58,841 nucleotides of DNA from Luminiphilus sp. (lineage in GTDB: Bacteria; Pseudomonadota; Gammaproteobacteria; Pseudomonadales; Halieaceae). The notes beneath the pieces were generated by a model. That model was not told where the DNA came from, made no database searches, and saw only the letters and a program-made list of their open reading frames with translations. Positions within the stretch are counted from its first letter, which is position 1; each line of letters starts with the position of its first letter. Made by a program: the position numbers and the translations under genes. Positions 1,338-29,924 of this stretch are shown piece after piece. The stretch spans positions 1 through 58,841 of the forward strand of contig JADHNP010000005.1 of the NCBI GenBank assembly GCA_016779445.1, given 5' to 3'.

Positions 1338-1357
1338 AAAAACCATCCTGCTTGCTT
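1338..1357 (-). promoter_or_regulatory. Putative TetR operator, copy A
   Basis: On the minus strand this reads AAGCAAGCAGGATGGTTTTT. It matches copies at 4163-4182, 7099-7118 and 12155-12174: the first seven bases are identical in all four, and G11, T13, G15 and T18 are invariant. A further AAGCAAG lies at 1329-1335, so TAAGCAAG and CTTGCTTA form an 8-bp inverted repeat spaced by 15. The TTGCTT at 1352-1357 could be the -35 of a rightward promoter, with TAGGCT at 1375-1380 (17-bp spacer). It lies between the divergent ferredoxin and reductase genes. Confidence 0.65.
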
Positions 1358-1413
1358 ATTTTATACGCCATCGCTAGGCTTTCCGCTCATTCATTTTTAC
1401 TGCTGAGAACAAC

Positions 1414-2424
1414 ATGAGCCACGGTAATAAACAGCAATGGATTCTGGCGAAACGTCCCGAGGGCGTTCCGGATGCGTCTGAAGTTGTATTTCAAGAAGCC
1501 CCCATCCCCGACACAGGACCCGGGATGTTACTGGTCAAAAACCACTATATCTCTCTGGATCCGGCTATTCGCGGTTGGATGTCTGACATCCCCAACTACC
1601 TGCCCCCCATCCCCATTGGCGATCCCGTGCGGGCGACCGTGGTGGGGGAAGTGCTCGAAAGTGGCGCAGATCACATCAAACCTGGAGATTATGTCTTCGG
1701 GCTGGGGGGCTGGGAGACGCACTGCACCATACCGGTAGAATTTTGTACCAAAGTGCCAGAGGACAATGAATTTCCCCTGCACTACTTCGTGAACATGCTG
1801 GGCGCAGTGGGGCTAACACCCTACTTTGCCATTGCCGATGTAGGTGGCGCACAGGCAGGACAAACTATGCTGATGAGTGCCGCTGCAGGCGCGGTCGGCT
1901 CTATAGGTGGTCAAATCGCAAAAATTATGGGCCTCAAAGTGGTCGGTATTGCCGGTACTGACGAGAAATGTCGCTGGGTGGTTGAAGACTTAGGCTTTGA
2001 CGACTGCATCAATTATCGCACTGCAGGGGATATGGAGGCAGCGATTCGCGAAGCCTGCCCAGAAGGGGTCGACTTCTATTTCGACAACGTCGGTGGGGAG
2101 ATTCTAGACGCCGCGCTCATGAATATGAACAAGGATTCCACCCTTCTCTTTTGCGGCACGATTAGCACCTATAACGCTACGGAACCAGTGCCCGGCCCCT
2201 ACAACTATTGGCAGATACTGGCACGCACGATTACGGTCAAGGGTTACCTGGTCAGCGATCACTACCACCGTATTGAAGAGGGGCAAGCGGTACTTAGCGA
2301 GTGGCTTAAGGCAGACCAAATCAAATTCCGCGAGCACATTAACGAGGGGATCGAGAATTGCCTCGACACTTATAACTTGCTTTTCTCAGGCGGTAACAAG
2401 GGCAAATTAATGCTAAAGCTTTGA
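1414..2424 (+). CDS. NADP-dependent medium-chain oxidoreductase
   Basis: This complete 336-residue, zinc-free medium-chain reductase belongs to the same family as the partial gene at the left edge, close to prostaglandin/alkenal reductases and curcumin reductase CurA. It has an N-terminal GroES-like fold, a Rossmann motif (SAAAGAVGSIGGQIAK) and the conserved FDNVGGE. It probably reduces a C=C bond of an enone or enal with NADPH in the cytoplasm. It is transcribed alone, away from the ferredoxin, from the gap holding operator copy A. A strong bidirectional terminator follows. The ATG has only a weak Shine-Dalgarno sequence. Confidence 0.9.
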   Translation: MSHGNKQQWILAKRPEGVPDASEVVFQEAPIPDTGPGMLLVKNHYISLDPAIRGWMSDIPNYLPPIPIGDPVRATVVGEVLESGADHIKPGDYVFGLGGWETHCTIPVEFCTKVPEDNEFPLHYFVNMLGAVGLTPYFAIADVGGAQAGQTMLMSAAAGAVGSIGGQIAKIMGLKVVGIAGTDEKCRWVVEDLGFDDCINYRTAGDMEAAIREACPEGVDFYFDNVGGEILDAALMNMNKDSTLLFCGTISTYNATEPVPGPYNYWQILARTITVKGYLVSDHYHRIEEGQAVLSEWLKADQIKFREHINEGIENCLDTYNLLFSGGNKGKLMLKL

Positions 2425-2466
2425 GGAGACGATCAGCGGCACTGCATTCCGCGTTGTAAGTTGAAC

Positions 2467-2496
2467 AAAAAGGGGCGTCCACATGATGCCCCTTTT
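2467..2496. terminator. Bidirectional rho-independent terminator
   Basis: The stem GGGGCGTC / GATGCCCC has one G-U pair and a five-base loop. It is flanked by AAAAA on the left and TTTT on the right, so it can end both the plus-strand reductase and the minus-strand Rieske oxygenase that converge here. Confidence 0.85.
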
Positions 2497-2509
2497 CTTA
2501 TGTTCTCGA

Positions 2510-3691
2510 TCAGAGGTCAGGTTTGGGGGCATCAGGATCCCCACTGGTGTACCACTTCACGCAACGATGAAAATACTGATTACCGCGCTCATTTCGGCCG
2601 AACAGTACGCTCTTCATCATGCCGGTCTGCAACCCTTTCTGGAGCTGCAAGCCTACATTGTAGTCTTCATTTTGCACCACATCGCGAAGCCAATCTGCCA
2701 TCTCTACTTGTGCGGCAACATCTTCTTCGTTCTCTGGTGGCGTGGGATGCAAAAAGTGCAGAATAGTCGTGTTTTCCATAGGCCCGGGGCCAGGGATCAT
2801 TTGTGCTATCTGAGTAATTTCCGGCGCAATAAAAATAGAGACATTTGGGAAAAAAAGCCGGATAAAATCAAATCCTTTAGACTCGTGCTGCCACAAATCG
2901 TCTGGATTAACCTCATTCAGGCTCGTTACGTTCTTGGCCGCAAACCCCACCAACTGATGCGGGCCGTGCGCGTCGTATTCCATTACATTGGTAAAGGTGC
3001 GGGGTTCGATAGTTTCGGGATGCGCCGCTTTGAAATGATAGCCCTCAAGGTAACCATCATAGGCGACCTTCCAGTTCGGCCCATGAATCGCCCGGCTCCC
3101 GACGTAACTCCATTGTTCCATACCCTTTTTAGCGACGTCATCCATCATGCCGCCTAAGTACTCGCGAATATTTATATCGCTGTCGGCGCTCAATACCGCA
3201 AAAATCAATCCACCCTCTTCATGACTCGGAAATTGCACCAAGTCACGCGCACCCTCGCAAACCTCACCAAACTTTGGGGCATCAGCGATGGCTCTGAGGG
3301 AGCCATCTGACTTAAATGTCCACCCATGATAAGGACAACTGAATAACTTCTGGTTCCCACAGGGCGCTGATGCCAGCCTCATTCCTCTGTGGGTGCAGAC
3401 ATTCATGAGCACCTTGGCACCGCCATCTTTTTGCCGCGTAATCAGCAACGGTATACCCAGAATTTCCAGAGTCTTGAAATCTCCCGGCTCAGGAATTTCT
3501 TGCGACACCCCCACCAAAATCGGCAGAGATTTGAAGATATCGTCCATCTCCCGCTGCCAGATAGCAGGGTCGGTATATTCAGTGGAAGGCACCTCCATCG
3601 TATCGGCAGCCCAGTCAGTCGTGCCGTTTTGCACATGCCCCAACAACCTCGCACCCATGCGGCTGTACTGAATTTTTGTATCCACTGTCAT
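2510..3691 (-). CDS. Rieske non-haem iron oxygenase, large (alpha) subunit
   Basis: This 393-residue ring-hydroxylating oxygenase alpha subunit has Rieske ligands C99-x-H101 and C119-x2-H122. The mononuclear iron site is in NWKVAYDGYLEGYHFKAAH: H219 and H224, with D212 as the likely bridging acid and a later acid (NEDYN) as probable third ligand. No small beta subunit is encoded nearby, which fits homotrimeric oxygenases that hydroxylate or demethylate. A clear Shine-Dalgarno (GGAGAGGAAG) precedes the ATG. It lies 24 bp downstream of the ABM-domain gene in the same operon, under operator copy B. The substrate is unknown. Confidence 0.92.
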   Translation of the reverse strand: MTVDTKIQYSRMGARLLGHVQNGTTDWAADTMEVPSTEYTDPAIWQREMDDIFKSLPILVGVSQEIPEPGDFKTLEILGIPLLITRQKDGGAKVLMNVCTHRGMRLASAPCGNQKLFSCPYHGWTFKSDGSLRAIADAPKFGEVCEGARDLVQFPSHEEGGLIFAVLSADSDINIREYLGGMMDDVAKKGMEQWSYVGSRAIHGPNWKVAYDGYLEGYHFKAAHPETIEPRTFTNVMEYDAHGPHQLVGFAAKNVTSLNEVNPDDLWQHESKGFDFIRLFFPNVSIFIAPEITQIAQMIPGPGPMENTTILHFLHPTPPENEEDVAAQVEMADWLRDVVQNEDYNVGLQLQKGLQTGMMKSVLFGRNERGNQYFHRCVKWYTSGDPDAPKPDL

Positions 3692-3715
3692 TATCTTCCT
3701 CTCCTGACTTGGTCT

Positions 3716-4051
3716 CTACTCCGGCAAGACTCGCTGTTCTGGCATTATCAGATCGCCCACCGAACTGACCTCGTATCGGCGCACCTCCATATCCAGAATG
3801 TCGAGCCCAGCGCAGGCCTGCAAAAATGCACTCACATGAGGCGTTTTCAGGTGCGCATCAAGGGCAGCCTGTGAAGCCCATTGCTCACTCACCCACACAA
3901 CACAAGGGTCGGTTACGTCTGCTGCAATACCATACCACTGACACCCCTCCTCTTGCCTTGTACTCTCTACCACTGCTTTGGCAGCCTCGGCATATTTTGG
4001 CGCGCTTTCTTGGCTCAACTGAATCCGGACAATAACGCTCACTGTGCTCAT
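3716..4051 (-). CDS. ABM-domain (antibiotic biosynthesis monooxygenase-like) protein
   Basis: This 111-residue protein has the ferredoxin-like ABM fold, recognisable from an N-terminal VIVRIQLSQES strand, EGCQWYGI and a C-terminal AHLKTPHVSAFL segment. Family members are cofactor-free quinol monooxygenases or small stress proteins that act as dimers. It is the first gene of the minus-strand pair with the Rieske oxygenase, with GGGG about seven bases before its ATG. Oxidation of a quinol or dienol intermediate would suit the setting, but this is inference from context. Confidence 0.8.
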   Translation of the reverse strand: MSTVSVIVRIQLSQESAPKYAEAAKAVVESTRQEEGCQWYGIAADVTDPCVVWVSEQWASQAALDAHLKTPHVSAFLQACAGLDILDMEVRRYEVSSVGDLIMPEQRVLPE

Positions 4052-4141
4052 ACTTACCCCATTTTCGCTTTCATTTTACTTGCCGGCATATAAAATCACC
4101 GGGGTGGGCACTAGACTGGCGCCCGCGTCTTTCGCCGCGTC

Positions 4142-4205
4142 AACCTAGATTTCGAAACAGAAAAAGTCAAGCGTGCTTGCTTTTTTCTTTGCGTCTACCT
4201 AACCT
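4142..4205. promoter_or_regulatory. Divergent promoter pair around putative TetR operator, copy B
   Basis: The operator at 4163-4182 reads AAGCAAGCACGCTTGACTTT on the minus strand and contains the inverted repeat CAAGC-GT-GCTTG (4168-4179). A leftward promoter fits TTGACT (4165-4170), 17 bp and TAGGTT (4142-4147). A rightward promoter fits TTGCTT (4177-4182), 17 bp and TAACCT (4200-4205). Both -35 boxes overlap the operator, so a bound repressor would block both directions. The rest of the 210-bp gap shows nothing else. Confidence 0.65.
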
Positions 4206-4263
4206 TGATCGATTCTGAAACACCCCAACCATCGCGCCAAAGCGATATGCGCAGGAGACAGCA

Positions 4264-5046
4264 GTGGCCAACAGGCTCCAGGGAAAAGTCGCTCTTATTA
4301 CCGGTGGTACCAATGGCATAGGGCGTGCCGCAGTTTATGGTCTCAGCGAAGAAGGCGCTCAGATAGTCTTTACCGGAAACAATGCCAAAGCTGGTGCGGA
4401 GATCGCGGGGGAGACAGGGTCTGTTTTCGTGCAGCACGCGGTGCAGGACGTTGATGGCTGGACTCAAGTCAAGCAAGCCATCCTGCAGCACTATGGTCGA
4501 CTGGATATTACCTTCTCCAACGCCGGCACCAATGCGGGAGACAGTGATATCGAAACGGTCGAGATCGACGCCTGGAAGAATCTAATTGATGTCAACCTCA
4601 CGGGCATGATGTTGGCGATCAAAGCCAGTATAGAACTGATGAAAAATAATCCAGATCAGAGCGGCGGATCGATTATTCTCAACAGTTCGATTAACGGTAT
4701 TCTCGCACTCGCAGGCGATGTGACGTACTCAACGACCAAGGGCGCCTTGAGACTGCTGACAAAGTCGACGGCCGTGCATCTGGCAAAAACCCAGACGGGC
4801 ATTCGCTGCAATTCTATTCATCCCGGCGTTATCGAAACGCCCCTGATCCAAGGCGCTATAGCGGGTGCGCCAGACCCCGCTGCGGCCCGCAGCATGCTTG
4901 AGGGCATTGCGCCGCTGGGTCGGCTGGGCAGTATGGAAGAGATCGTATCGCTGTTGATTTATCTCGCCTCGGATGACGCAAAGTTTGTCACAGGCTCGGA
5001 GATAGTGATTGACGGTGGCTCAACGGCAGGGCTGCCTGGCGTTTAA
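4264..5046 (+). CDS. SDR-family oxidoreductase
   Basis: This 260-residue classical short-chain dehydrogenase/reductase has the TGGTNGIG cofactor loop near residue 14, SNAG in place of the usual NNAG, and the catalytic YxxxK as YSTTK. The C-terminus ends with the family's VIDGG segment. The GTG start at 4264 is supported by AGGAGA just upstream. It would oxidise a hydroxyl or reduce a keto group with NAD(P). It is the only gene of its rightward unit, under the promoter at operator copy B. The exact substrate cannot be told. Confidence 0.9.
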   Translation: MANRLQGKVALITGGTNGIGRAAVYGLSEEGAQIVFTGNNAKAGAEIAGETGSVFVQHAVQDVDGWTQVKQAILQHYGRLDITFSNAGTNAGDSDIETVEIDAWKNLIDVNLTGMMLAIKASIELMKNNPDQSGGSIILNSSINGILALAGDVTYSTTKGALRLLTKSTAVHLAKTQTGIRCNSIHPGVIETPLIQGAIAGAPDPAAARSMLEGIAPLGRLGSMEEIVSLLIYLASDDAKFVTGSEIVIDGGSTAGLPGV

Positions 5047-5080
5047 GCCGTCATCAAGTCAACAACAAAGCGATAGACCA

Positions 5081-5488
5081 CTATTCGCCGTGTAATACGC
5101 TGAAAACACGACGAGAAAACTTCCATTCACCCGCCACTTTCACACACTCGTCGTCATATTGGCCGCGGGGCCGAAGCTCAGTGCCATCCTGAGTCACGGC
5201 GACCTCGTCGGTATAGCTTCGCATCGTGGCACGATCGCCCTCTACCTTGATCACACCTGGCATCGCCATCATGTTGACAAAAGGAAACATCTTCATCGCC
5301 TCCAGCCACGCCGCTACGATAGTTTCGCGCCCCTTTAGGCCTTCCATATCGAGATGGGGCAACTCCCATATCGCATCCTCGGCCCAGGTAGACCCCCAAG
5401 TTTCAGCGTCGCGCTGATTAACGCCATCGCAATAACGTTCAAGCAAGGCGCGAATTGCTTGCTGCTCATCAAAACATTGATCGCCCAT
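5081..5488 (-). CDS. NTF2/SnoaL-like domain protein
   Basis: This 135-residue protein of the SnoaL-like cone fold is recognisable from the N-terminal helix (ALLERYCDGVNQRD), TWAEDAIWELP and the C-terminal ECVKVAGEWKFSRRVF. Family members include small isomerases, hydratases, cyclases and non-catalytic subunits of Rieske enzymes. GAGGAAAGGA precedes the ATG. It lies 27 bp downstream of an SDR on the same strand and is probably co-transcribed with it. A second SnoaL-like protein sits at 10350. The function is unassigned. Confidence 0.8.
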   Translation of the reverse strand: MGDQCFDEQQAIRALLERYCDGVNQRDAETWGSTWAEDAIWELPHLDMEGLKGRETIVAAWLEAMKMFPFVNMMAMPGVIKVEGDRATMRSYTDEVAVTQDGTELRPRGQYDDECVKVAGEWKFSRRVFSVLHGE

Positions 5489-5515
5489 GTGTCCTTTCCT
5501 CGTCTTCTCTAATGC

Positions 5516-6280
5516 TTATTGATTGATCAGTCCGCCGTCGATCACCATTTGCGCGCCGGTCATATAGGTCGAAAGGTCTGAAACTAGAAATAGTGCTGCA
5601 TCGGCAATCGTCTGAGGCGGGCCCATATATCCCATGGGCACAGCGGCGTTTAACTTCACATACTCCTCGGGATTGTCCACCGAAGACTGTCTTTGCATAT
5701 TGGTATCAATCAATCCGGGGTGAAGCGTGTTGCATCGAATCCCATCGGCGGCCGTCTCCGCTGCAACCGTTTTCGTGAAGCTAATAACGCCTCCTTTGGC
5801 GGCAGCGTAAGCGCTGCAAGCAGGCACACCGACCAATGCTGCCACCGAGGACATATTGACGATAGAGCCCTTGACCCCTGTTTCACGCATAAGGGCAACG
5901 CCTTTCTGGGTGCCGAGAAACACGCTGGTCATATTCACCAGCATCTGTCGGTTGTAGTCTGCCAACGAGAGTTCCGGCAGTGTTTTTAACACGGCAATCC
6001 CCGCATTGTTGATTAATGCATCCAATCTGCCGTGCTCGCTTTGAATAGCCGCCATGGTGGTATCCCACGCGGCCTCTTCCGTAACGTCCTGCTGCCACGC
6101 TTGCGCCCGACCACCGGCGGCGACAATCTCTGCCGCAGTCGTGGCTGCGCCCTCGCCGTCGATGTCAGTCACAATCACTATCGCGCCCTCATCGGCCAAC
6201 TTGTGCGCAATGGCGTGCCCTAACCCAGGATTGGATGCACCACCCGTTACCAGACACACTTTGCCATCAACCATGCTCAT
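5516..6280 (-). CDS. SDR-family oxidoreductase
   Basis: This 254-residue classical SDR has the cofactor loop TGGASNPGLG, an NNAG motif and catalytic YAAAK, and ends with VIDGG plus a short tail. The first ATG (6280) is favoured because GAGGAGA lies six bases before it. It is followed by the SnoaL-like gene and preceded on the same strand, 66 bp away, by the TetR regulator. These three could be one operon from the promoter at copy C. It probably oxidises a hydroxy intermediate of the pathway. Confidence 0.9.
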   Translation of the reverse strand: MSMVDGKVCLVTGGASNPGLGHAIAHKLADEGAIVIVTDIDGEGAATTAAEIVAAGGRAQAWQQDVTEEAAWDTTMAAIQSEHGRLDALINNAGIAVLKTLPELSLADYNRQMLVNMTSVFLGTQKGVALMRETGVKGSIVNMSSVAALVGVPACSAYAAAKGGVISFTKTVAAETAADGIRCNTLHPGLIDTNMQRQSSVDNPEEYVKLNAAVPMGYMGPPQTIADAALFLVSDLSTYMTGAQMVIDGGLINQ

Positions 6281-6346
6281 GGTCTTCTCCTCGACTTTTT
6301 GTTTTCAAATAAAGTTGCTTACTCATTTAAATCGACCCGACTCACG

Positions 6347-7051
6347 CTACGGATTGTCGGCATCTGCAAGGTAGATACGCTCGAGATGATCTGTCACTGT
6401 CTCAATCATGCGTCGGGCTCGCTGCTCGCGATGCGACGAGCGATAAGCTACGCCCATACCCTGCATCACAAACTGCACCAGATCGTGCGCTGCCTGCAAC
6501 GATTTGACCTGTTTCCAATGTGGGAATACAGATCGCACCGTCTTCAAAAATTCACGTTCAAAATCCTGCTCTACTTCACCGATAGCTTTTGCCAACTCCT
6601 GATCGGTGCGTGCCGCAGACAGTAATTCCTGATAGGCAACAAAGGACGGCAAATTGACGTACTTCCACGCCGACTCTACCGATGTTCGGATCGCATTCCG
6701 CGTCAACTTCTGATCGGGCGAATCGATGTCTGTCATCAAGGAGCGATATTCGTTGATTCGTCGAACGTGCAGATAGCCCACAACCGCATTCATCACCGCC
6801 GAGCGGGAGGGGAAATGGTGCATCATCGCGCCACGCGAGACACTCGCCTCCTCTGCAATCATGGCTGTGGTAGTGCGGCCATAGCCGTGTTCCACAAAGC
6901 AACGCACTGCAGCTTCCAAAATAGCCTGCCGCGTCAGCGCACTTTTTTCCGCTTGCCAACCCTCGCCGACCCGCGCCCCGCTGGCCGTCTTCACTGCCTG
7001 CGACTTTGCTCTCCCAGCCATTCTCTTACCGCCAGCTTTCCGTCCGCTCAT
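6347..7051 (-). CDS. TetR/AcrR-family transcriptional regulator, likely cluster repressor
   Basis: The N-terminal helix-turn-helix (TRQAILEAAVRCFVEHGYG to SVSRGAMMHHFPSRSAVM) is typical of TetR proteins; the rest is a ligand-binding helical domain. I chose the ATG at 7051 (234 residues) because AAGGG lies seven bases before it, whereas the ATG at 7066 has no ribosome site. The N-terminal tail is basic. It is divergent from the DUF35/thiolase operon, and the gap between them holds one copy of the repeated palindrome, fitting autoregulation. It is the only regulator in the cluster and the natural candidate to bind all four copies. A CoA-ester ligand is plausible but inferred. Confidence 0.88.
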   Translation of the reverse strand: MSGRKAGGKRMAGRAKSQAVKTASGARVGEGWQAEKSALTRQAILEAAVRCFVEHGYGRTTTAMIAEEASVSRGAMMHHFPSRSAVMNAVVGYLHVRRINEYRSLMTDIDSPDQKLTRNAIRTSVESAWKYVNLPSFVAYQELLSAARTDQELAKAIGEVEQDFEREFLKTVRSVFPHWKQVKSLQAAHDLVQFVMQGMGVAYRSSHREQRARRMIETVTDHLERIYLADADNP

Positions 7052-7098
7052 GGAGATCCCTTGCATCGACGAAGATTACACAGCTGGGCGCCATTTCA

Positions 7099-7142
7099 GC
7101 AAACAATCCAGCTTGCTTTTTTTATGGGCGGTATCCTAGACT
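7099..7142. promoter_or_regulatory. Putative TetR operator, copy C, with rightward promoter
   Basis: The minus strand of 7099-7118 reads AAGCAAGCTGGATTGTTTGC. TTGCTT at 7113-7118 could serve as a -35, followed by TAGACT at 7137-7142 (18-bp spacer). It sits between tetR and the DUF35/thiolase genes. Confidence 0.65.
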
Positions 7143-7224
7143 GATTTCGCAACGACAACCACCGGGGCCACACCTATAAGGCACTACTGAATTCCCGGTG
7201 TACTAACAGCTATGAGGAGTCCTG

Positions 7225-7659
7225 ATGTCTGGAGCCAAGCCGCTGCATCCCGGCCTATTCACCTGGCCTGACCAGAATCCGAGTCTTATGGGAAGTCTCT
7301 GCCTCGATTGCGGTGAACACGCGTTCCCAAGTCAGCGCTCTTGCAGAGCTTGTTCCGGACAAAATACCCAAGACGCGGAACTAGGCAATACCGGTACCCT
7401 GTGGACCTGGACTATTCAGTCGTTTATGCCTAAAACACCATATCTCACCGACGAGACCCCTGAAAGCTTTCGCCCTTATGGTGTTGGCTATGTCGAATTA
7501 CCCTGCGGACTCAAAGTGGAGAGCCGACTGAGGGAAAATACACCCGACCAGCTTCGTATTGGTATGCCAATGCAATTGGAGATTATCTCGGTGCGCGAAG
7601 ATGAGAAAGGCGATGCGCTAATGACTTTCCAATTTTGTGCGGCAAAGGAGACACATTAA
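7225..7659 (+). CDS. DUF35 zinc-ribbon/OB-fold protein
   Basis: This 144-residue protein has a rubredoxin-like zinc ribbon (C26-x2-C29, C40-x2-C43) followed by an OB fold, the DUF35 architecture. In steroid side-chain degradation such proteins are obligate partners of thiolase-like aldolases or of hydratases. Here the stop TAA shares a base with the ATG of a thiolase-like gene, which strongly suggests a complex. GAGGAG lies six bases before the ATG. It is the first gene of the rightward operon under copy C. Confidence 0.9.
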   Translation: MSGAKPLHPGLFTWPDQNPSLMGSLCLDCGEHAFPSQRSCRACSGQNTQDAELGNTGTLWTWTIQSFMPKTPYLTDETPESFRPYGVGYVELPCGLKVESRLRENTPDQLRIGMPMQLEIISVREDEKGDALMTFQFCAAKETH

Positions 7660-8801
7660 TGGATGTTGCAATCGTAGGGTTAGGTCTACACCCGTTTGGA
7701 AGAACCGCCACGATGTCGGGTCTCGAACAAGGTGCTGCCGCCGTCAGAACAGCGCTCGCAGACGCAGGTACCGATTTTAAAACCATGCAATTCGCCTTCG
7801 GCGGTAGCCAAGACGGCGGCAATGCCGACTCGCTAGTCAATCTACTCGGGCTGACGGGACTTCAGTTCACTAATGTCGCGAACGGATGCGCCACAGGGGG
7901 GAGCTCCCTTAACGCCGCCTATTCGGCAATTAAAAGCGGTCAGTACGACGTAGGCTTAGTGGTCGGCTTTGACAAACATGCTCGAGGTGCCTTCAACCCA
8001 AAACCGGCTGAATGGGGTCTAGATGATTGGTATGGTGAGACCGGGCTCATGCTTACCACACAGTACTTTGGTATGAAGATCCAGCGCTATATGCATGACT
8101 ATGGTATTTCACGGGATACGCTGATCCGTGTTGCCGAAAAAGCCTTCCGTAACGGTGCGCTCACCCCCACTGCCTGGCGCCAGACTGCGCTGTCGTGGGA
8201 GGAGATCGAAAACGCCCCGATGGTCAGTGAACCACTGAATAAATATATGTTCTGTTCGCCTGCCGAGGGTGGCTGCGCTCTGGTGGTCTGCCGCGCCGAT
8301 ATGGCACAGCAATTCCACTCCAACCCAATTTACCTAAAAACTGCGGTCGTGCGCTCGCGAAACTACGGCAGCTTCGAAGTGTTCAGTCCATCGCAGCCGC
8401 CTGAAGTAGCCGCATCGCCAACGGTGACTGCCTCGCAAACCGCGTTCGAGTTGGCCTCAGTGGGTCCCGAGGATATCGACGTCGCACAACTACAGGATAC
8501 AGAGGTAGGGGCTGAGATTATGCACATGGCTGAGAACGGATTTTGTGCCCACGGCGAGCAGGAACAGTGGCTTGCGGAGGGCGCAACGGAGATTACGGGT
8601 CGGCTGCCCGTTAATACCGATGGCGGCTGTCTCGCCAATGGTGAGCCAGTCGGCGCTTCGGGCCTGCGGCAGGTACATGAGATCTGTGTGCAGCTCCGGG
8701 GAGAAGGAGGCGCTCGACAGGTAGCTGGCCAGCCCAAAGTTGGCTATACCCACGTGTATGGCGCACCGGGCATTAGTGGTGTCAACATTCTGACTCGATA
8801 A
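7659..8801 (+). CDS. Thiolase-like (SCP2/lipid-transfer type) acyl-CoA enzyme
   Basis: This 380-residue thiolase-superfamily protein starts at the ATG overlapping the DUF35 stop, with AAAGGAGA upstream. The first-half nucleophile region reads NGCATGG (C77). Near the C-terminus the usual thiolase GHP is replaced by NGEPVGASG, so the general-base histidine is absent at that place. This is the type annotated as lipid-transfer protein or acetyl-CoA acetyltransferase in steroid and terpenoid degraders. Together with its DUF35 partner it may be a retro-aldolase that shortens a side chain, rather than a thiolase. The family call is sure and the reaction is inferred. Confidence 0.85.
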   Translation: MDVAIVGLGLHPFGRTATMSGLEQGAAAVRTALADAGTDFKTMQFAFGGSQDGGNADSLVNLLGLTGLQFTNVANGCATGGSSLNAAYSAIKSGQYDVGLVVGFDKHARGAFNPKPAEWGLDDWYGETGLMLTTQYFGMKIQRYMHDYGISRDTLIRVAEKAFRNGALTPTAWRQTALSWEEIENAPMVSEPLNKYMFCSPAEGGCALVVCRADMAQQFHSNPIYLKTAVVRSRNYGSFEVFSPSQPPEVAASPTVTASQTAFELASVGPEDIDVAQLQDTEVGAEIMHMAENGFCAHGEQEQWLAEGATEITGRLPVNTDGGCLANGEPVGASGLRQVHEICVQLRGEGGARQVAGQPKVGYTHVYGAPGISGVNILTR

Positions 8802-8853
8802 AGCCCTCGACACAGGGTCGCGGGTACCAAAGCAGCATTTAAAGGAATAGACG

Positions 8854-10233
8854 ATGGCAAATGCAGAGCACAAGCAACAAGGAGACGGAGGCCGGTTTGT
8901 CGGCACCACTTGGCAGGATTTGCTGGATCTAGAAACAGTCGACGTACCCGACTACCTCCGCGTTCAGCATAACCCCTACATGGGAGACGAGGATCTCTCG
9001 GTAGATCGCTACATCAGCCAAGAGTTCTTCAACAGAGAAAAGGAAGAAATGTGGCCGCATGTCTGGCAAATGGCCTGCCGGGAAGAAGAAATACCCGAGC
9101 CAGGTGATCACCATGTGTACTGGATAATCGACCGAAGTGTGATCGTCACGCGCACGCCATCTGGTGAGATCAAGGGGTTCATCAATTCATGCCGGCATCG
9201 GGGACGATGCTTACGCGACGAATCAGGATCCGTTGATAAATTTCGCTGCCCTTTCCATGGCGCCACGTGGGATCTGGATGGCCAGTTCAAAGGCATACCC
9301 AACGACTGGGATTTCGAACACATCGCCGAGCGGGATATGAGTCTGCCCCAAGTCAAGGTCGACACATGGGGCGGCTTCGTCTTTATCAATTTTGATCTCA
9401 ACTGCGCGCCGCTCGAAGACTACATGGAAATCCTGCCTGACCACTTCAAGCGCTTCCCACTGGAGGAGTACTTCACGGGTGTTCATGTACAGCGGGTGAT
9501 GAACTGCAACTGGAAGGTGGGTGCCGAGGCCTTTATGGAGTCCTGGCACACCGTGGAAACTCACAAGCAGATCCTGACCTTCACCGGTGATGCGAATTCG
9601 CAATACGATTGCTGGGGCGACAACGTAAGTCGTTCGGTCACACCAATGGGGGTTGCCAGTCCACACCTGAGCGACGTGAGCGAGGAGACAATTACGCGCG
9701 ACATCCTGAAGCTCTCTGGTCGCATGGCCACGGATAGCGACGAGGGCGTCGAAATGAAAGACAGCCAAAGTGCGCGCGAGTACGTCGCCGAGATGAATCG
9801 CGAGATGTTCGAGGAAGCCGCAGGAGAAGCGTTCGACGACCCCACCATGGCTGAGCTACAGGATGCCATTCTTTACAGCCTGTTCCCCAACCTTCAAGTC
9901 TGGATTGGCTACGGTGGCAATATTGTCTATCGGTTTTTACCCAATGGGAACGATCCCGACAGCTGTATCTTTGACGTCCGCATACTTTTGCGTCACCCAA
10001 AAGGCGGCGAGCGCCCCGCTACTGTCCCCTGCACGGTGATACCGCCAGATCAGCCCTTCGCATCACACGAGGCCCTAGGCTCTCTCGGGGGGGTATTTGA
10101 TCAGGACGATGCCAACCTGCCTGCAGTTCAACGAGGGATGAAAAATTCGGCCACTGGCAAAGTCATTTTGGCGAGCTATCAAGAGAGCCGGATCAGGCAC
10201 ATGCACCAAACGATCGACAAATACCTGAGCTAG
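8854..10233 (+). CDS. Rieske non-haem iron oxygenase, large (alpha) subunit
   Basis: This second Rieske oxygenase of the cluster has 459 residues. The Rieske ligands are C113-x-H115 and C132-x2-H135. The iron site is NWKVGAEAFMESWHTVETH with H232 and H237, and E225 occupies the bridging acid position. It is longer than the 393-residue paralogue and only distantly related. AAAGGAA precedes the ATG, 52 bp after the thiolase-like gene, so it is probably the third gene of the DUF35 operon. No beta subunit or dedicated reductase adjoins it. It probably hydroxylates a ring carbon; the substrate is unknown. Confidence 0.92.
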   Translation: MANAEHKQQGDGGRFVGTTWQDLLDLETVDVPDYLRVQHNPYMGDEDLSVDRYISQEFFNREKEEMWPHVWQMACREEEIPEPGDHHVYWIIDRSVIVTRTPSGEIKGFINSCRHRGRCLRDESGSVDKFRCPFHGATWDLDGQFKGIPNDWDFEHIAERDMSLPQVKVDTWGGFVFINFDLNCAPLEDYMEILPDHFKRFPLEEYFTGVHVQRVMNCNWKVGAEAFMESWHTVETHKQILTFTGDANSQYDCWGDNVSRSVTPMGVASPHLSDVSEETITRDILKLSGRMATDSDEGVEMKDSQSAREYVAEMNREMFEEAAGEAFDDPTMAELQDAILYSLFPNLQVWIGYGGNIVYRFLPNGNDPDSCIFDVRILLRHPKGGERPATVPCTVIPPDQPFASHEALGSLGGVFDQDDANLPAVQRGMKNSATGKVILASYQESRIRHMHQTIDKYLS

Positions 10234-10283
10234 GTTTTAAAGCAAAATCGGCTTCTAAACCCAGATCAAAAGCCATCGGCAAC

Positions 10284-10319
10284 GGGTCGGTTGCGGCCCA
10301 TCACATCTCGCAACGACCC
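10284..10319. terminator. Hairpin between convergent genes
   Basis: GGGTCGGTTGCG pairs with CGCAACGACCC, leaving one bulged G and a 13-base loop. There is no T-run on either side, so it is not a standard rho-independent terminator. Its place between two gene ends suggests transcript termination or 3' end protection. Confidence 0.45.
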
Positions 10320-10349
10320 AGGATGCGCCAGCATGTGCTTCAGGTGTTT

Positions 10350-10754
10350 CTATTCGCCTTGACTGTAATACGCCCACGCGTCTGAGATGGGTTTGGCGTC
10401 GAAATAATAGGGACGGATCTCGCACACTTTATCACCCCTCAAACGAAAGACTTCGGCGAGCTGTGCCGGCGCCAAATCTGGGTTCTCGAAACGGAAGGAG
10501 ATCAAATTAACAACGTAATCACCTCCAACCGTCATGCCTTCGGGCTCAAGGTCCGCCACTTTCAGCGTACCGAAAACGTGCGAGTAAAGCTCTCTAAGCG
10601 CCGTTTTACCTCGATACTCACCCGCCATCGGTAAGTCGTCGGCCTCACGAATAAAAAAATCATCCGTTAACAGTAATTCCACCGCATCAAAATCGCCCGC
10701 ACCTGATTTGGCATATAGCGACTCGACCAATGCCAGCTTTTCCTCATTTGTCAT
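10350..10754 (-). CDS. NTF2/SnoaL-like domain protein
   Basis: This 134-residue SnoaL-like cone-fold protein carries an N-terminal helix (KLALVESLYAKSGAGD), LLTDDFFIREADDLP and a C-terminal VCEIRPYYFDAKPI strand pair. GGGGAAGA precedes the ATG. It lies 80 bp downstream of an acyl-CoA dehydrogenase on the same strand, probably in one operon. Little sequence is shared with the SnoaL-like protein at 5081. Possible roles are an isomerase, a hydratase or an accessory subunit; I cannot choose between them. Confidence 0.78.
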   Translation of the reverse strand: MTNEEKLALVESLYAKSGAGDFDAVELLLTDDFFIREADDLPMAGEYRGKTALRELYSHVFGTLKVADLEPEGMTVGGDYVVNLISFRFENPDLAPAQLAEVFRLRGDKVCEIRPYYFDAKPISDAWAYYSQGE

Positions 10755-10834
10755 TGTCTTCCCCTAGTCTGCATTAAATGTTGTCCCGTTGACCCAACGC
10801 TTAGGCGACACCCACTTCGGACCGTCCTCTTTTT

Positions 10835-12061
10835 TTAGCTTTCATGGGCATAGCGCTGGATAACGCGCTTCCCCAAGGCCATCTGATGCACTTCATCCGG
10901 CCCATCCGCCTGTCGGCACCAACGCGCATAGTTAAATTGTTCCGCCATACACCAATCTTCTGTCAGTCCTCCAGCGCCATGCATTTGCATGCAGCGATCA
11001 ATCAGATTCTGAACCATCAGCGGCACGCTGATTTTAGTCGCTGAAATCAGCTCGATAGAAGGCTTCACTCCCTGTCGGTCGATATGCCAACACGTTTTAT
11101 GAACTAACAATCTCGCCATCTCTAATTCTGCATAGCTCTTGGCAATATTCTCGCGGATCGACTGATGCTGACTGAGTTTCTTACCAAAAGTCTCTCGATC
11201 CTCGACCCGCTGGCAGGCCAATTCCAATGATCGCTGGGCGGCACCAATCAGACGCATACAGTGGTGCATCCGCCCCGGCGCAAGACGACTTTGGGCAATT
11301 TCGAAGCCCCTGCCCTCACCCAGCAACAAATTATCCAGAGGCACGCGAACATCAGTGAAGATCACTTCGGCATGGCCGATAGGCGCATCGTCATAGCCCA
11401 AGGTCGTCAGCGGCCGCCTTACCGCGACTCCGGGCGTATCTTTGGGTACCAGAATTTGTGTCTGCTGCAGGTGTCGATTGGGATTTTCTGCGTCACTTTT
11501 GCCCATCACGATAAAAATCTTGCAACGCTCATAGGGTGCGCCGGTTATGAACCATTTGTGTCCGTTGAGCACCCACTCATCACCATCACGACGAATATCT
11601 AATTGGATATTGGTCGCGTCACTCGAGGCAACCTGCGGTTCAGTCATAGCATAGGAAGAACGGATTTCGCCTCCAAGCAATGGTTCGAGCCACGCTTTCT
11701 TTTGCGCCTCGGTACCGAACTTCATCAGCACCTCCATATTTCCCGTGTCGGGCGCATTACAATTAAAAACCTCGGGTGACCAGATAACGCGACCCATTTC
11801 TTCTGCCAGAGGAGCGTAATCCAGAAAGCTCATCCCGCCATGTTCACTGTGCTCGGCAAATTCGGGGGGAACAAATAGATTCCAAAGGCCCGCGCTGCGA
11901 GCTTTATCCTTTAAATCTTCTACCAGCGGCATGGACGCGAAACGATTCTCAGCACTCTGCAGCGCCTCACGGTGCGCAGTCTCTGCCGAATAGATGTGTT
12001 CTGCCATGAACGCTTTAAGCTCACCGAGAATGTTCGCGCTCTTTTCACTGGGGACGATCAT
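10835..12061 (-). CDS. Acyl-CoA dehydrogenase (ACAD10/11-like)
   Basis: This 408-residue flavoprotein has the acyl-CoA dehydrogenase signatures SYAMTEPQVASSDATN and NGHKWFITGA in the middle domain, and HGAGGLTEDW near the C-terminus. The VASSDATN form is typical of the ACAD10/11-like branch, whose members act on branched or 4-hydroxylated acyl-CoAs. AGAGG precedes the ATG. It is divergent from the CoA ligase across operator copy D and is followed by a SnoaL-like gene. It would introduce a double bond next to the thioester and pass electrons to ETF. Confidence 0.92.
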   Translation of the reverse strand: MIVPSEKSANILGELKAFMAEHIYSAETAHREALQSAENRFASMPLVEDLKDKARSAGLWNLFVPPEFAEHSEHGGMSFLDYAPLAEEMGRVIWSPEVFNCNAPDTGNMEVLMKFGTEAQKKAWLEPLLGGEIRSSYAMTEPQVASSDATNIQLDIRRDGDEWVLNGHKWFITGAPYERCKIFIVMGKSDAENPNRHLQQTQILVPKDTPGVAVRRPLTTLGYDDAPIGHAEVIFTDVRVPLDNLLLGEGRGFEIAQSRLAPGRMHHCMRLIGAAQRSLELACQRVEDRETFGKKLSQHQSIRENIAKSYAELEMARLLVHKTCWHIDRQGVKPSIELISATKISVPLMVQNLIDRCMQMHGAGGLTEDWCMAEQFNYARWCRQADGPDEVHQMALGKRVIQRYAHES

Positions 12062-12154
12062 GATCTACCTCTTTGCCACTAACAGGTTTGATGAGTTCTC
12101 TCGCGCACCGCAATCCCGAAGGCCGGACCTGACCGACCAACGAATACGATAAAC

Positions 12155-12196
12155 AAGCAAGTTGGTTTGTTTTTAGCTTTAGTCATACTATATAGT
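12155..12196 (+). promoter_or_regulatory. Putative TetR operator, copy D, with rightward promoter
   Basis: The plus strand of 12155-12174 reads AAGCAAGTTGGTTTGTTTTT, the same palindrome as copies A-C but in the other orientation. TTGTTT at 12167-12172 could be a -35 and TATAGT at 12191-12196 the -10 (18-bp spacer). The 268-bp gap between the dehydrogenase and the ligase shows nothing else recognisable. Confidence 0.65.
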
Positions 12197-12329
12197 CATC
12201 GCAAGCAGACAGAAACTCCCGAATGCCCATCGAAGCCACCGAGCTCGGCCTAGGCCACATTTATGGGACCGTTCAGCAGGGACAAAACAGAGTAAAACAC
12301 ACATATAGCGATAGCGTCGCAGGGAAACC

Positions 12330-13934
12330 ATGGACCTGATTACCGATACGACCTACCGAAACGTGACCTTGGCGCAAGTCGCCGCGGCGCGCGCAACAGA
12401 GCGCCCCAATGAGACCGCGCTGCGCTTTGACTCTGGCCACACGTTAAGCTTCGCAGAAGCGTGGCGACAAGCCAATGCGCTTGCAATTCAGATTCAGCGA
12501 CTTGGGGTAACCGCGGGCGCCACGCTTACCTTTCAATTACCCAATGTTCCCGAATCCGTCCCGGTTGCCATTGCGGCCTCCATCTGTGGGCTGGTCATAA
12601 ATCCAGTAGTCCCTATCTATCGCGGCAAAGAACTGGGATTTATCCTGAATGATGCCAAAAGCGAGATACTGTTCATTCCACACCGTATCCGTGGCTTCGA
12701 CTATGTCGATATGATCACTTCACTGAGGCCGTCACTGCCGCACCTCCGGCACGTGATCTGTTGCGGCGCAGAGGAGGACTTATCTGATGACGTCCTCAGA
12801 TATGAAACGCTTATGACAGACGCCCCATCGGATCTCGCCGCAGTCACCAATGTAGACCCGAACGACACCAAGGTAATCTTGTACACGTCAGGCACCACCG
12901 GTAATCCCAAAGCCGTCCGGCACAGCCACAACACGCTGGCAAAAGCGCTGGATAACGGCGTAGACGCGTGGCAACTGGGTGAGGATGACATGATGCTCAT
13001 GCCCTCACCTGTGACCCACGTAACAGGCTATGTGAACGGTATCGAGCTGCCTTTCTTCACCGAGTGCAAGGTCTTACTCATGGAAAGCTGGGTTGTCGAT
13101 AAAGCCATCCCATTGATAGAACGCTATCGGGCGACGAGTTGCGTGAGTGCAACCCCATTTTTACGCGAACTGGTTGATGCTTGCAGAGACCAGAGGAAAA
13201 CGCTCCCGGGATTTCGGATCTTCGCTTGTGGCGGTGCGGCTGTCCCGGCAGCACTAATTTATGAGGCCAATGAGGTGCTCGCTGATTGTCGCGCCGTGAG
13301 GGTCTATGGCTCGACAGAGGTCCCCCTGGTAACAGTGGGCTTTATAAAAGAGGACGAGACCCAACTGGCGGCTGAAACCGACGGCAAAGTCTGCAATTAC
13401 GATGTGCGGATTTGCAATGACGAGGGCGTGGATGTAGGTCTCAATACAGAGGGTGAAATTTGGGTTCGCGGACCAGCCATGATGCAGGGGTACCGAGAAA
13501 CATCGCAAAATGAAGCGGCTTTCTCCGAAGATGGCTTCTTCAAGACCGGCGATATTGGGCAGCTCTTGGACACACATGCCATCGTGATCACGGACCGCAA
13601 GAAAGACATTATCATTCGCGGGGGCGAAAACTTGTCGGCCCGCGAGATCGAAGAGGCGGTTATGCAACACCCGGATGTGATGGAGGCCGCGGCGGTATCA
13701 GCACCGCATCGTCGCCTCGGGGAAGGTGTCGCGATATTCATTACACTATACGAGGGGGGGACTGCCCCAACGCTGGAGGCCCTTGCGACACTGTGCAGCC
13801 AGCTTCAGTTGGCCAAGCAAAAGTGGCCTCAGTGGCTGGGCGTGACCCCGGAAATGCCCAAGACCCCCTCAGGTAAAATCCAAAAATCCGTGCTGCGCCA
13901 ATCGTTGCAAGATCAGGGCGTATTGCTAGGCTAG
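12330..13934 (+). CDS. Acyl-CoA synthetase, cyclohexanecarboxylate-CoA ligase-like
   Basis: This 534-residue class I adenylate-forming enzyme has its P-loop at residues 185-196 (YTSGTTGNPKAV), the YGSTE motif, the hinge region DRKKDIIIRGGENLS and the catalytic lysine in PSGKIQK. It resembles ligases for alicyclic or medium-chain acids. It would activate a free carboxylic acid with ATP and CoA and so start the pathway. AGGGA precedes the ATG. It is first in a rightward operon with two acyl-CoA dehydrogenases and an SDR, under operator copy D. Confidence 0.92.
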   Translation: MDLITDTTYRNVTLAQVAAARATERPNETALRFDSGHTLSFAEAWRQANALAIQIQRLGVTAGATLTFQLPNVPESVPVAIAASICGLVINPVVPIYRGKELGFILNDAKSEILFIPHRIRGFDYVDMITSLRPSLPHLRHVICCGAEEDLSDDVLRYETLMTDAPSDLAAVTNVDPNDTKVILYTSGTTGNPKAVRHSHNTLAKALDNGVDAWQLGEDDMMLMPSPVTHVTGYVNGIELPFFTECKVLLMESWVVDKAIPLIERYRATSCVSATPFLRELVDACRDQRKTLPGFRIFACGGAAVPAALIYEANEVLADCRAVRVYGSTEVPLVTVGFIKEDETQLAAETDGKVCNYDVRICNDEGVDVGLNTEGEIWVRGPAMMQGYRETSQNEAAFSEDGFFKTGDIGQLLDTHAIVITDRKKDIIIRGGENLSAREIEEAVMQHPDVMEAAAVSAPHRRLGEGVAIFITLYEGGTAPTLEALATLCSQLQLAKQKWPQWLGVTPEMPKTPSGKIQKSVLRQSLQDQGVLLG

Positions 13935-13959
13935 GTGCGAATCAGCGAGGACCCAAAAA

Positions 13960-15159
13960 GTGAATGCATCCAACCCCTATCCTGGCGATTACAGCGCCTT
14001 CAGAGAGTCGGTTCGCGAATTTCTCGCAGTCGGTCTCACGCCAGAGTTGGCGCGCGCAGGTGAGCGCACTACCAGCGTTTTTTCCGACTTTGAGGCCGGC
14101 CGCCAGTGGCAGAGCATTCTGCATGCAAAAGGCTGGGGTGCCCCAGAGTGGCCACTGGAGCACGGTGGGACGGGCTGGGATATTCAGCAACGTTATATTT
14201 TTCTTGAGGAATGCAGACTAGCGAATGCACCCAATCCAGTGATGATGGGCGTGCAGATGCTTGGGCCGATGCTAATGCATTTTGGAACCGAGGCTCAGAA
14301 GAGCGCCTATTTACCGGGCATCATCTCGGGAGATGACGTTTGGTGTCAGGGATATTCAGAGCCTGGATCTGGGTCAGACCTCGCCTCACTGAAGACAACG
14401 GCCGATCGTGACGGCGATGAGTACGTGGTAAATGGCACCAAAATCTGGACCAGTATGGCGCATTACGCCAACTGGATTTTTTGTCTGGTTCGCACAGACA
14501 AAAGTGTCAAACCTCAAGCCGGCATCAGTTTTTTACTGATTGATATGGCGACTCCCGGCATCACGGTAACCCCGTTTTCGAGCCTCGATGGCGAAATTGA
14601 ACAGTGCCAGGTGTTCTTTGAAGATGCCCGAGTTCCCGTCAGCAACCTGTTGGGCGAGGAAAATCAGGGCTGGACCGTCGCCAAATATCTACTTGAATTC
14701 GAACGAGGCGGGCAACACTTCACCATTGATCTCAAGAAGCAGCTTCGGAAATTACGACGTCTGATCGGCAGCGAAGCCAATGCGGCAGCAGAAGACCCCA
14801 CTTTTGTGTACCGAATAGCCGAGACCGAAATCGATGTAATGGCTCTGGAACAAACAGAGCTGCGCATTAAAGGCACCGTAGCCGCTGGCGAGCATCCGGG
14901 CGCCCTCTCCTCCCTCGTCAAAGTGTCGGGCACAGAGCTTGGCCAACAGTGTGCAGAACTACTGATAGAGGCGGCAGGTCAGGGCGCAATGCCATGGCAA
15001 AGCGAGGTGTTATCGCCGGAATACGAAGGACCCACTGCTGCACCCGAGGAGTGTGTCACCACTATGGCCGAATACATCAACAGTCGGTCAACCACGATCT
15101 ACGGCGGTACCGCAGAGATACAGCGCGGCATCATTGCCAAGCATGTTCTTGGCCTATAA
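13960..15159 (+). CDS. Acyl-CoA dehydrogenase, large subunit of a probable heteromeric pair
   Basis: This 399-residue acyl-CoA dehydrogenase shows YSEPGSGSDLASL, NGTKIWTSMAHYANW and a C-terminal IYGGTAEIQRGIIAKHVLG, the full set of FAD- and substrate-binding signatures. The GTG start at 13960 has GCGAGGA nine bases upstream; the ATG at 13964 is in another frame. A second, shorter dehydrogenase begins 15 bp after its stop. Such pairs form alpha2-beta2 enzymes in steroid side-chain and pimeloyl-CoA degradation, acting on bulky acyl-CoAs. Confidence 0.92.
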   Translation: MNASNPYPGDYSAFRESVREFLAVGLTPELARAGERTTSVFSDFEAGRQWQSILHAKGWGAPEWPLEHGGTGWDIQQRYIFLEECRLANAPNPVMMGVQMLGPMLMHFGTEAQKSAYLPGIISGDDVWCQGYSEPGSGSDLASLKTTADRDGDEYVVNGTKIWTSMAHYANWIFCLVRTDKSVKPQAGISFLLIDMATPGITVTPFSSLDGEIEQCQVFFEDARVPVSNLLGEENQGWTVAKYLLEFERGGQHFTIDLKKQLRKLRRLIGSEANAAAEDPTFVYRIAETEIDVMALEQTELRIKGTVAAGEHPGALSSLVKVSGTELGQQCAELLIEAAGQGAMPWQSEVLSPEYEGPTAAPEECVTTMAEYINSRSTTIYGGTAEIQRGIIAKHVLGL

Positions 15160-15174
15160 ACGGAATAACTGAGG

Positions 15175-16263
15175 ATGACCGAAGACCAGACCTTATTGCA
15201 CGATGCCTCTGACCGGTATCTGCGCGACAGTTATGACTTCAACGCACGGCGTGAGCGGATCGCACTGGGCGTCTACACCGACCCTCAGCATTGGCGGGCA
15301 TTCGCGGAGATGGGATGGCTTGCGCTTCCGGTACCTGAAAACTTCGATGGCTTGGGATTGGGCACCCGCGAGTGTGCGATTCTGGCTGAACTTTGCGGCC
15401 AATATCTCATCACCGAGCCGCTCATTGACGTACTCGCTGCCGTCAGCACACTGATTGCGCCAAGTCCGCATGCAGAGCGGTGGCTAGGTCAGGTGGTTGG
15501 GGGCGAACTCATCACCGTAGCGGGAATCGATGAGGGCGCCGGTCAGCGTAGCAAAAGCCCCTCCACCAAACTCACCCAAGTCGACTCCGGCTGGCGACTG
15601 ACAGGCACCAAGCAATGGATCAACGCCGGACCATCAGCGACGCATTTTATTGTTCTGGCCACGGTTGAAGAGGGGTTAGCGTGGGTGATCTGCCCTCGCG
15701 ATGCGGCGGGCGTCGATTGTGAGGATTTTCCAACCCATGATGGCCGCGGTGGTACCAACTGCGCATTCAACACCGCGATTGAGGAGAACCAGATACTGCT
15801 CTCGGGTGCGCCGGCACAATCGGCTTTGGACGCATATCGGGAACTGGCGATGATACTGAGCAGCGCAGAAACACTGGGCGCCGCCCATGCCGCGCTCGAT
15901 ACCACCGTGGAATACACCAAACAGCGTGTTCAATTTGGTCAACCACTATCGTCTTTTCAGGCCTTACAACACCGCATGGCCAATATGCTCATTCAAATAG
16001 AACTGACGCGTTCCTTGGTCTATGCCGCCTGCGACGCTGCGGATGGGGATACTCCAGATCAATCCCGCTTTGCTCGCGCTGCAAAAGTCAAAGCCAGTTC
16101 GGTAGGGCGCAAAGTGTCACAAGAGGCGATTCAGCTTCACGGCGGCATCGCCACCACGGATGAGTATATTGTTGGGCACTTTTTCAAACGCATTACTGCG
16201 CTCGATAGCTGGGTCTGCTCACGAGGCGAAGCACTTAAAGAATTTATGGCATTAAGCGGTTAA
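15175..16263 (+). CDS. Acyl-CoA dehydrogenase, small subunit of a probable heteromeric pair
   Basis: This 362-residue protein resembles the small subunit of pimeloyl-CoA dehydrogenase: an N-terminal RYLRDSYDFNARR, a mid-domain GTKQWINAGPSATHF, QRVQFGQPLSSFQALQHR and a C-terminal QLHGGIATTDEYIVGHFFKR. It is about 40 residues shorter than its upstream neighbour, as expected for the partner chain. The gene is 15 bp behind that neighbour, so translation may be coupled. I expect a heterotetramer with one active site per dimer, by analogy with FadE-type pairs. Confidence 0.9.
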   Translation: MTEDQTLLHDASDRYLRDSYDFNARRERIALGVYTDPQHWRAFAEMGWLALPVPENFDGLGLGTRECAILAELCGQYLITEPLIDVLAAVSTLIAPSPHAERWLGQVVGGELITVAGIDEGAGQRSKSPSTKLTQVDSGWRLTGTKQWINAGPSATHFIVLATVEEGLAWVICPRDAAGVDCEDFPTHDGRGGTNCAFNTAIEENQILLSGAPAQSALDAYRELAMILSSAETLGAAHAALDTTVEYTKQRVQFGQPLSSFQALQHRMANMLIQIELTRSLVYAACDAADGDTPDQSRFARAAKVKASSVGRKVSQEAIQLHGGIATTDEYIVGHFFKRITALDSWVCSRGEALKEFMALSG

Positions 16264-16312
16264 GCTTTGCCGACACCTTCGAAATATTGATGATCAACCA
16301 AGGAGAAAAATA

Positions 16313-29766: not shown

Positions 29767-29924
29767 ACGGCTTGGACTTGCTGATGATCTTGGCTATCGC
29801 GGTATCGCGCCCGGTAGAGCAGCGCTCTTCTACCCTACCTGTTACCCGAATGATCATTGCCATCACGTAAATCACCAGTTTGCACGAGAGTTCTCGACGC
29901 CTCATCGCGCTACAATCCTTAGCC

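Follow-up and report, generated by a model that had tools for sequence, protein, structure and literature searches.

Four copies of an 18-bp dyad lie in the four divergent gaps of a catabolic gene cluster of Luminiphilus sp. (Halieaceae), and sequence comparison makes it very probable that they are the operators of the cluster's own TetR-family repressor. The cluster lies within the window, the stretch of 58,841 nucleotides analysed here (GenBank assembly GCA_016779445.1, contig JADHNP010000005.1, positions 1 to 58,841). Each site consists of two 8-bp halves around a 2-bp centre. Operator A (1340-1357, AAACCATCCTGCTTGCTT) lies between the genes for a Rieske ferredoxin and the MDR-family reductase MDR1, operator B (4165-4182, AGTCAAGCGTGCTTGCTT) between those for an ABM monooxygenase and the short-chain dehydrogenase (SDR) SDR1, operator C (7101-7118, AAACAATCCAGCTTGCTT) between tetR and a gene for an OB-fold protein, an autoregulatory position, and operator D (12151-12168, AAACAAGCAAGTTGGTTT) between the genes for acyl-CoA dehydrogenase 1 and a CoA ligase. 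An earlier note on this DNA had described a 20-bp imperfect palindrome, with a strand for each copy, at 1338-1357, 4163-4182, 7099-7118 and 12155-12174. These copies are present, share AAGCAAG together with G11, T13, G15 and T18, and all stand in divergent gaps; the operator is instead the 18-bp dyad, and because it is a dyad a strand has no meaning for it.

The positions given for A, B and C hold, while that of D had to be moved. In gap D the relatives keep the pattern AAACAAGC-NN-G[CT]TGGTTT, which corresponds to 12151-12168 of the window, 4 bp to the left of the copy first described; we therefore place operator D there and reject 12155-12174, where AAGCAAG is missing in L063, L066, L067, L068, L071 and L073. 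The rejected register outscores the new one by a single point in the window and in relatives with the same sequence; it is therefore the other relatives that carry the correction.

The similarity between the four gaps is far above chance. Their best 18-mer scores 46 (matches summed over the three remaining gaps), compared with a mean of 36.0 (standard deviation 0.93) and a maximum of 39 in 500 dinucleotide shuffles of the gaps, which excludes a chance resemblance. AAGCAAG by itself is no signal, occurring 15 times in the window versus 9.7 expected and at least 15 times in 7 of 100 shuffles. Nor is it found elsewhere only inside genes, as had been claimed: one occurrence, at 1329-1335, belongs to gap A but not to copy A, and was not seen in the aligned relatives.

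The sites are conserved. The window's own assembly comprises 2.47 Mb in 132 contigs and is 86.8% complete, and the 16 relatives found by name are metagenome-assembled genomes (MAGs) titled Halieaceae, Luminiphilus or plain Gammaproteobacteria. A tblastn search with the window genes located the cluster in each of the 16 named loci, either complete or truncated where the locus ends, and a site is retained in all divergent gaps recoverable from these and from six further genomes. Of the resulting 77 sites, the window's four included (A 16, B 22, C 22, D 17), all are identical at positions 1, 4, 8, 11, 15, 17 and 18. Mean identity to the window is 0.90 in operator A versus 0.50 in the remainder of its gap (15 relatives; rank 1 of 114 windows scored along the gap), 0.98 versus 0.35 for B (21 relatives; rank 3 of 195), 0.94 versus 0.45 for C (21 relatives; rank 1 of 156) and 0.91 versus 0.44 for D (13 relatives, L147-L149 left out; rank 4 of 251). 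The segments outranking the operator overlap it in gap B and fall on the -10 region in gap D. The best conserved part of gap D (0.96) is 12184-12201, which holds CATACTATATAGTCATC and the perfect dyad ACTATATAGT and is a candidate for an extended -10 or a second site.

Gap A is missing from the 77 in L060, L064, L065, L067, L069, L071 and L150, where the locus ends, as it does for gap B in L065; gap C is missing in L075, where genes are inserted and the site is known from the strict-pattern scan described below. Gap D is missing in L064 and L065, in which the acyl-CoA dehydrogenase gene is cut by the locus end and there is no true gap, and in L062, L075, L146 and L150, in which the gene lies outside the piece; it was taken one-sided in L068, L069, L071-L074, L148 and L149, with the CoA ligase gene not found adjoining. 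For L146-L151 gap B is the interval from RHO1 to SDR1, with no ABM match found there. The sites persist in a diverged subclade whose TetR is 59-62% identical overall, with AAACAAAC as the left halves of A and C. Members of this subclade (L146-L150) have no ABM match at E 1e-8 beside RHO1 and an additional SDR gene between tetR and SDR2. One MAG, G058, has the same A-type site on two contigs (L131 on C42, and C60:105-122), with the adjacent MDR1 at 83% on C42 and at 87% in L060; a duplicated cluster end and a mixed assembly are candidate explanations.

Pattern scans of the window and of the own genome indicate that the motif is not randomly scattered. Within the window, matches of at least 15 of 16 to the symmetric half-site are limited to A, B, C (plus an overlap shifted by 4 bp) and D, in a scan that is partly circular, the half-site being built from the sites themselves. 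A pattern taken from the diverged subclade alone matched the own genome exactly at B, at C and, on another contig, at one place upstream of a TonB receptor gene; one mismatch added A, D and three other places, and up to two mismatches gave 23 and 17 matches versus 9 and 13 for the reversed control. With a loose pattern (up to three mismatches) the numbers were 294 and 305 versus 207 and 201 for the reversed control, so these matches are mostly noise. Another own-genome pattern, at up to two mismatches, found 40 places versus 8 for its reversed control. When ten own-genome places, drawn from these 40 and from the listed matches of the loose pattern, were inspected, eight lay inside open reading frames (ORFs) of at least 100 amino acids (the one in L011 is short, at 121), and the two outside were C46:2089 and a copy on contig C63. 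The former, upstream of an SDR gene and by eye without a clear -10 at 17-18 bp, was not added to the regulon. The latter (G000:C63:583-600; L001 583-600) is a near-perfect operator copy 108 bp before the start of the TonB receptor gene, which is cut by the contig end. No matching site was found at any of six close receptor orthologs (86-96%; L101-L104 scored, L153 and L154 by alignment): the nearest (G058, L153) retains part of the dyad (by eye 14 of 16), and the other five have nothing comparable. We leave the receptor gene as a mere candidate for a fifth regulon member.

The operator and tetR occur together. A strict pattern matched in 14 of 58 genomes, namely in 11 of 11 congeneric genomes with a TetR of at least 71% (own included), in 0 of 5 with a TetR of 58-61%, because it misses sites with the AAACAAAC left halves in A and C, in 2 of 21 congeneric genomes without tetR (G012, G033) and in 1 of 21 genomes from other genera (G052, in which the reversed control had a match too). 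A composite of operator and -10 had matches at 57 places, spread over 29 of the 57 congeneric genomes, and its reversed control had none; every place reads as an A, B or C type, with mapping confined to those within fetched loci, and the window's copy C, with its spacer of 18, falls outside the composite. TetR was detected at E 1e-30 or better in 26 of the 57 genomes, every one of which has operator-plus-promoter sites, as do 3 of the 31 without tetR (G012, G071, G076; Fisher p 3e-13, kinship ignored). In these three and in G033, pieces of the cluster reach the contig end before tetR: one contig of G012 begins at the thiolase gene and another ends in SDR1, and contigs end in the thiolase gene in G033, in SDR1 in G071 and in ABM in G076. 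In the single-contig genome G084 the tetR ortholog (C1:653155-653796, L172) has one in-frame TGA; operators B and C are still present, as is an A-like site.

The proposed binder is encoded at 6347-7051 on the minus strand, with an alternative in-frame ATG at 7066. As the earlier note had it, the gene faces copy C: it stands 173 bp from its divergent neighbour with operator C in the gap. The protein has a TetR_N helix-turn-helix (PF00440, E 1.2e-15, 57.4 bits versus a cut-off of 24). Its AlphaFold2 model (pLDDT 78.3) has ten helices in an all-helical fold with a ligand domain, and the best Foldseek matches are EthR2 (nearest in the PDB, ~22% identity), GusR and Rv0078, at E 1e-6 to 1e-5; the predicted structure is thus a plain TetR fold, and the structure search offers no hint of the ligand. 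In the diverged subclade 12 of 13 residues (92%) are kept in the recognition-helix region 68-80, bounds that we set ourselves, and the ligand domain is 57-59% identical.

Orthologs from other families point to the same protein. A TetR search of 293 genomes of the order gave a match at E 1e-25 or better in 21, the own genome and G016 included, and 10 of the 19 genomes outside the genus were scored upstream of tetR. Six orthologs (53-58%) from three other families have best upstream sites of 16, 15, 15, 14, 13 and 13 of 16, a good to perfect dyad standing upstream of tetR, beside different genes, in four of the six. The 16/16 case is the perfect dyad AAACAATCGTGATTGTTT, and the dyad upstream of tetR is perfect in L161/L174; for background, a single one of 40,824 positions reaches at least 14 in window positions 18001-58841, a genome other than those of the orthologs. 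In L174 and L175 tetR stands within a one-way gene run; in L176 it faces another operon, and there are three intergenic sites of at least 15 and none in ORFs. At 14 of 16 there are ORF-internal matches too, two each in L174, L175 and L176. These places have tetR in common, which makes the TetR protein the likely binder of the dyad. In another family (L174 8160, L175 8033) the interval from tetR to the neighbouring SDR gene holds a second near-palindrome, AAACAGACATG[CT]ATGTTT.

All four operators terminate at a predicted rightward -35 hexamer, D in its corrected register. The predicted plus-strand promoters are TTGCTT (1352-1357) and TAGGCT (1375-1380) with a 17-bp spacer in gap A, TTGCTT (4177-4182) and TAACCT (4200-4205) with 17 bp in gap B, and TTGCTT (7113-7118) and TAGACT (7137-7142) with 18 bp in gap C. 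The proposal that TTGCTT or TTGTTT stands 17-18 bp before a -10 is borne out there; in gap D the -35-like box is TGGTTT (12163-12168), 17 bp from TACTAT (12186-12191), and operator D as corrected thereby matches A and B in its 17 bp to the -10. Copy B also fits a leftward promoter, as proposed: its left half supplies TTGACT (4165-4170, minus strand), 17 bp from a predicted TAGGTT (4142-4147, minus strand), and a similar box recurs by eye in aligned relatives.

Taken together, the local TetR regulon proposed in the earlier note is supported. A palindromic site in the divergent gap of tetR itself is repeated at the co-clustered promoters, as in an autoregulated local regulon; it co-occurs with tetR, persists in the diverged subclade and is kept upstream of tetR by four of six orthologs from other families. 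Further support comes from the 173 bp between tetR and its divergent neighbour, inside the 200-bp rule given in the available text of PMC3511530. Binding, repression and ligand are what we infer from the observed sites, their conservation, register, geometry and co-occurrence with tetR. A TetR dimer would bind the 18-bp dyad through a AAACAATC-type half-site, a 2-bp centre and a GCTTGCTT-type half-site; the bound protein would cover the rightward -35 in every gap, and the leftward one too at least in B, and keep RNA polymerase off. At gap C the dimer would limit its own gene. A pathway substrate or CoA-linked intermediate may release TetR and so turn on the divergent cluster transcripts together.

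Several observations weigh against this reading. The aligned sites were chosen as the best match to the gap consensus, and the co-occurrence counts are not independent of kinship; cluster and gene also travel together. Among the other-family orthologs, four of six belong to one genus, and L163 and L164 reach only 13 of 16; three of four more distant TetR relatives (38-40%) are without the site (L046, L168 and L169, at 11 of 16), the fourth, L167, having 14 of 16. The four promoters went undetected in a generic sigma-70 scan, so the boxes rest on position and conservation, and leftward promoters were not identified in gaps A, C and D.

The sites could be real operators of another regulator, global or a second TetR-type factor, that also controls the cluster; co-occurrence with the cluster would then look identical, a second TetR-family gene is present at 29880-30587, and the near-perfect copy before the TonB receptor gene lies on another contig. 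We nevertheless regard this as quite unlikely: there is no site of at least 14 of 16 near 29880, of the 21 congeneric genomes in the 58-genome sample that have no tetR, 19 do not have the strict pattern either, the exceptions G012 and G033 holding cluster pieces cut before tetR, and orthologs of this TetR in other families have the dyad upstream of tetR with different neighbours. That this TetR binds the sites as an activator or a non-regulatory partner is very unlikely. A few members of the family do activate, for example AtrA, but in the portion of PMC3511530 available all five tested TetR-family proteins with a divergent neighbour less than 200 bp away are repressors, and the overlap with the -35, in B with both -35 boxes, fits occlusion.

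It is scarcely credible that the resemblance is one of promoter sequence alone, a conserved -35 and -10 with a T-rich spacer and no operator. The right half GCTTGCTT does include the -35 box in A, B and C; yet the left half, upstream of the -35, is conserved too, being identical in B (AGTCAAGC in 22 of 22 rows) and containing AAAC in every site of A (16 of 16), C (22 of 22) and D (17 of 17). Moreover, gap D retains the dyad despite its different -35, and in L161/L174 the dyad upstream of tetR is perfect.

A more tentative extension, possible but on balance doubtful, is that one TetR lineage and a single operator were kept across several families of the order while the target set was rebuilt: in Luminiphilus the local divergent catabolic promoters, elsewhere other operons, and here perhaps also the TonB receptor gene, which as a target would concern substrate uptake. 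On this extension the Luminiphilus operator merged with the promoter, one half-site (GCTTGCTT) doubling as the -35; where tetR has different neighbours, a perfect dyad (AAACAATC-NN-GATTGTTT) can occur. If so, the asymmetry of the half-sites would record two selective pressures acting on the same piece of DNA.

From gap A the Rieske ferredoxin gene (950-1282) and then an MDR-family reductase gene (3-950) run leftward on the minus strand, and MDR1 (1414-2424) rightward on the plus strand. From gap B the minus-strand genes for the ABM monooxygenase (3716-4051) and a Rieske oxygenase alpha subunit (2510-3691) run leftward (2510-4051 together) and SDR1 (4264-5046, plus) rightward. A terminator-like hairpin of 12 pairs (2468-2496) lies between the convergent MDR1 and Rieske oxygenase genes. 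Downstream of tetR, the leftward run from gap C continues with a SnoaL-like protein and SDR2 (5081-6280, minus), and its rightward run encodes a ChsH2-like OB-fold protein, a thiolase and a second Rieske oxygenase (7225-10233, plus). Gap D separates the leftward genes for a SnoaL-like protein and acyl-CoA dehydrogenase 1 (10350-12061, minus) from the rightward ones for the CoA ligase, two acyl-CoA dehydrogenases and SDR3 (12330-17074, plus). This gene set suggests the breakdown of a cyclic acid as its CoA thioester.

These results give a conserved catabolic cluster of marine Halieaceae (Luminiphilus and its kin), here known almost only from metagenome assemblies, a specific operator and a regulon that can be tested cheaply. 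They also give a handle on the substrate, as the compound that releases TetR likely belongs to the pathway, and illustrate how an operator register derived from a single genome can be put right with the help of relatives. Among the open-licence papers listed, covered by titles and the beginnings of abstracts, none was on this operator or cluster, and searches with sequence strings were noisy; PMC10100682, which deals with Halieaceae genomes, does not use the words Rieske, steroid or aromatic in its main text, as far as that was available.

The nearest known system is KstR2 of mycobacteria and rhodococci, which, in the accessible parts of PMC3068626, recognises a 14-bp motif (AnCAAGnnCTTGnT) in three divergent gaps near kstR2, and whose effector is given as HIP-CoA (PMC8700777, accessible text). 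Both are TetR-type repressors inside a catabolic cluster with palindromes in divergent gaps including their own, and share the half-site CAAG; KstR2 also represses both divergent genes at sites other than its own, which we count as a likeness, and by analogy release by a pathway compound is likely here. However, KstR2 has 2 bp between CAAG and CTTG where by eye there are 4 here (copy B), CAAG is by eye missing from the left halves of A and C, and here there are four gaps and a gammaproteobacterial host. No entry named KstR2 appears among the matches listed (all 21; best 60 of 97; first 50 of 953 from Foldseek), and because spacing and left half differ we do not file the system as KstR2. EdcR of Caenibius tardaugens, also of the TetR type, represses a steroid cluster in a Gram-negative host and has putative operators in several promoters of that cluster, but its operator (TnnCnnTACnAnTnGTAnnGnnA) overlaps the -10 box instead of the -35 and by eye is unlike the dyad (PMC8700777, same extent), so that membership in its regulon is rejected on operator sequence and position. 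The system also resembles the divergent TetR-family autoregulators in general, in which under 200 bp separate the regulator gene from a divergently transcribed enzyme gene and the operator lies in the gap, as outlined in the part of PMC3511530 consulted; it differs in that three further gaps of the same cluster bear the site. The system is ordinary in kind, and its operator is new.

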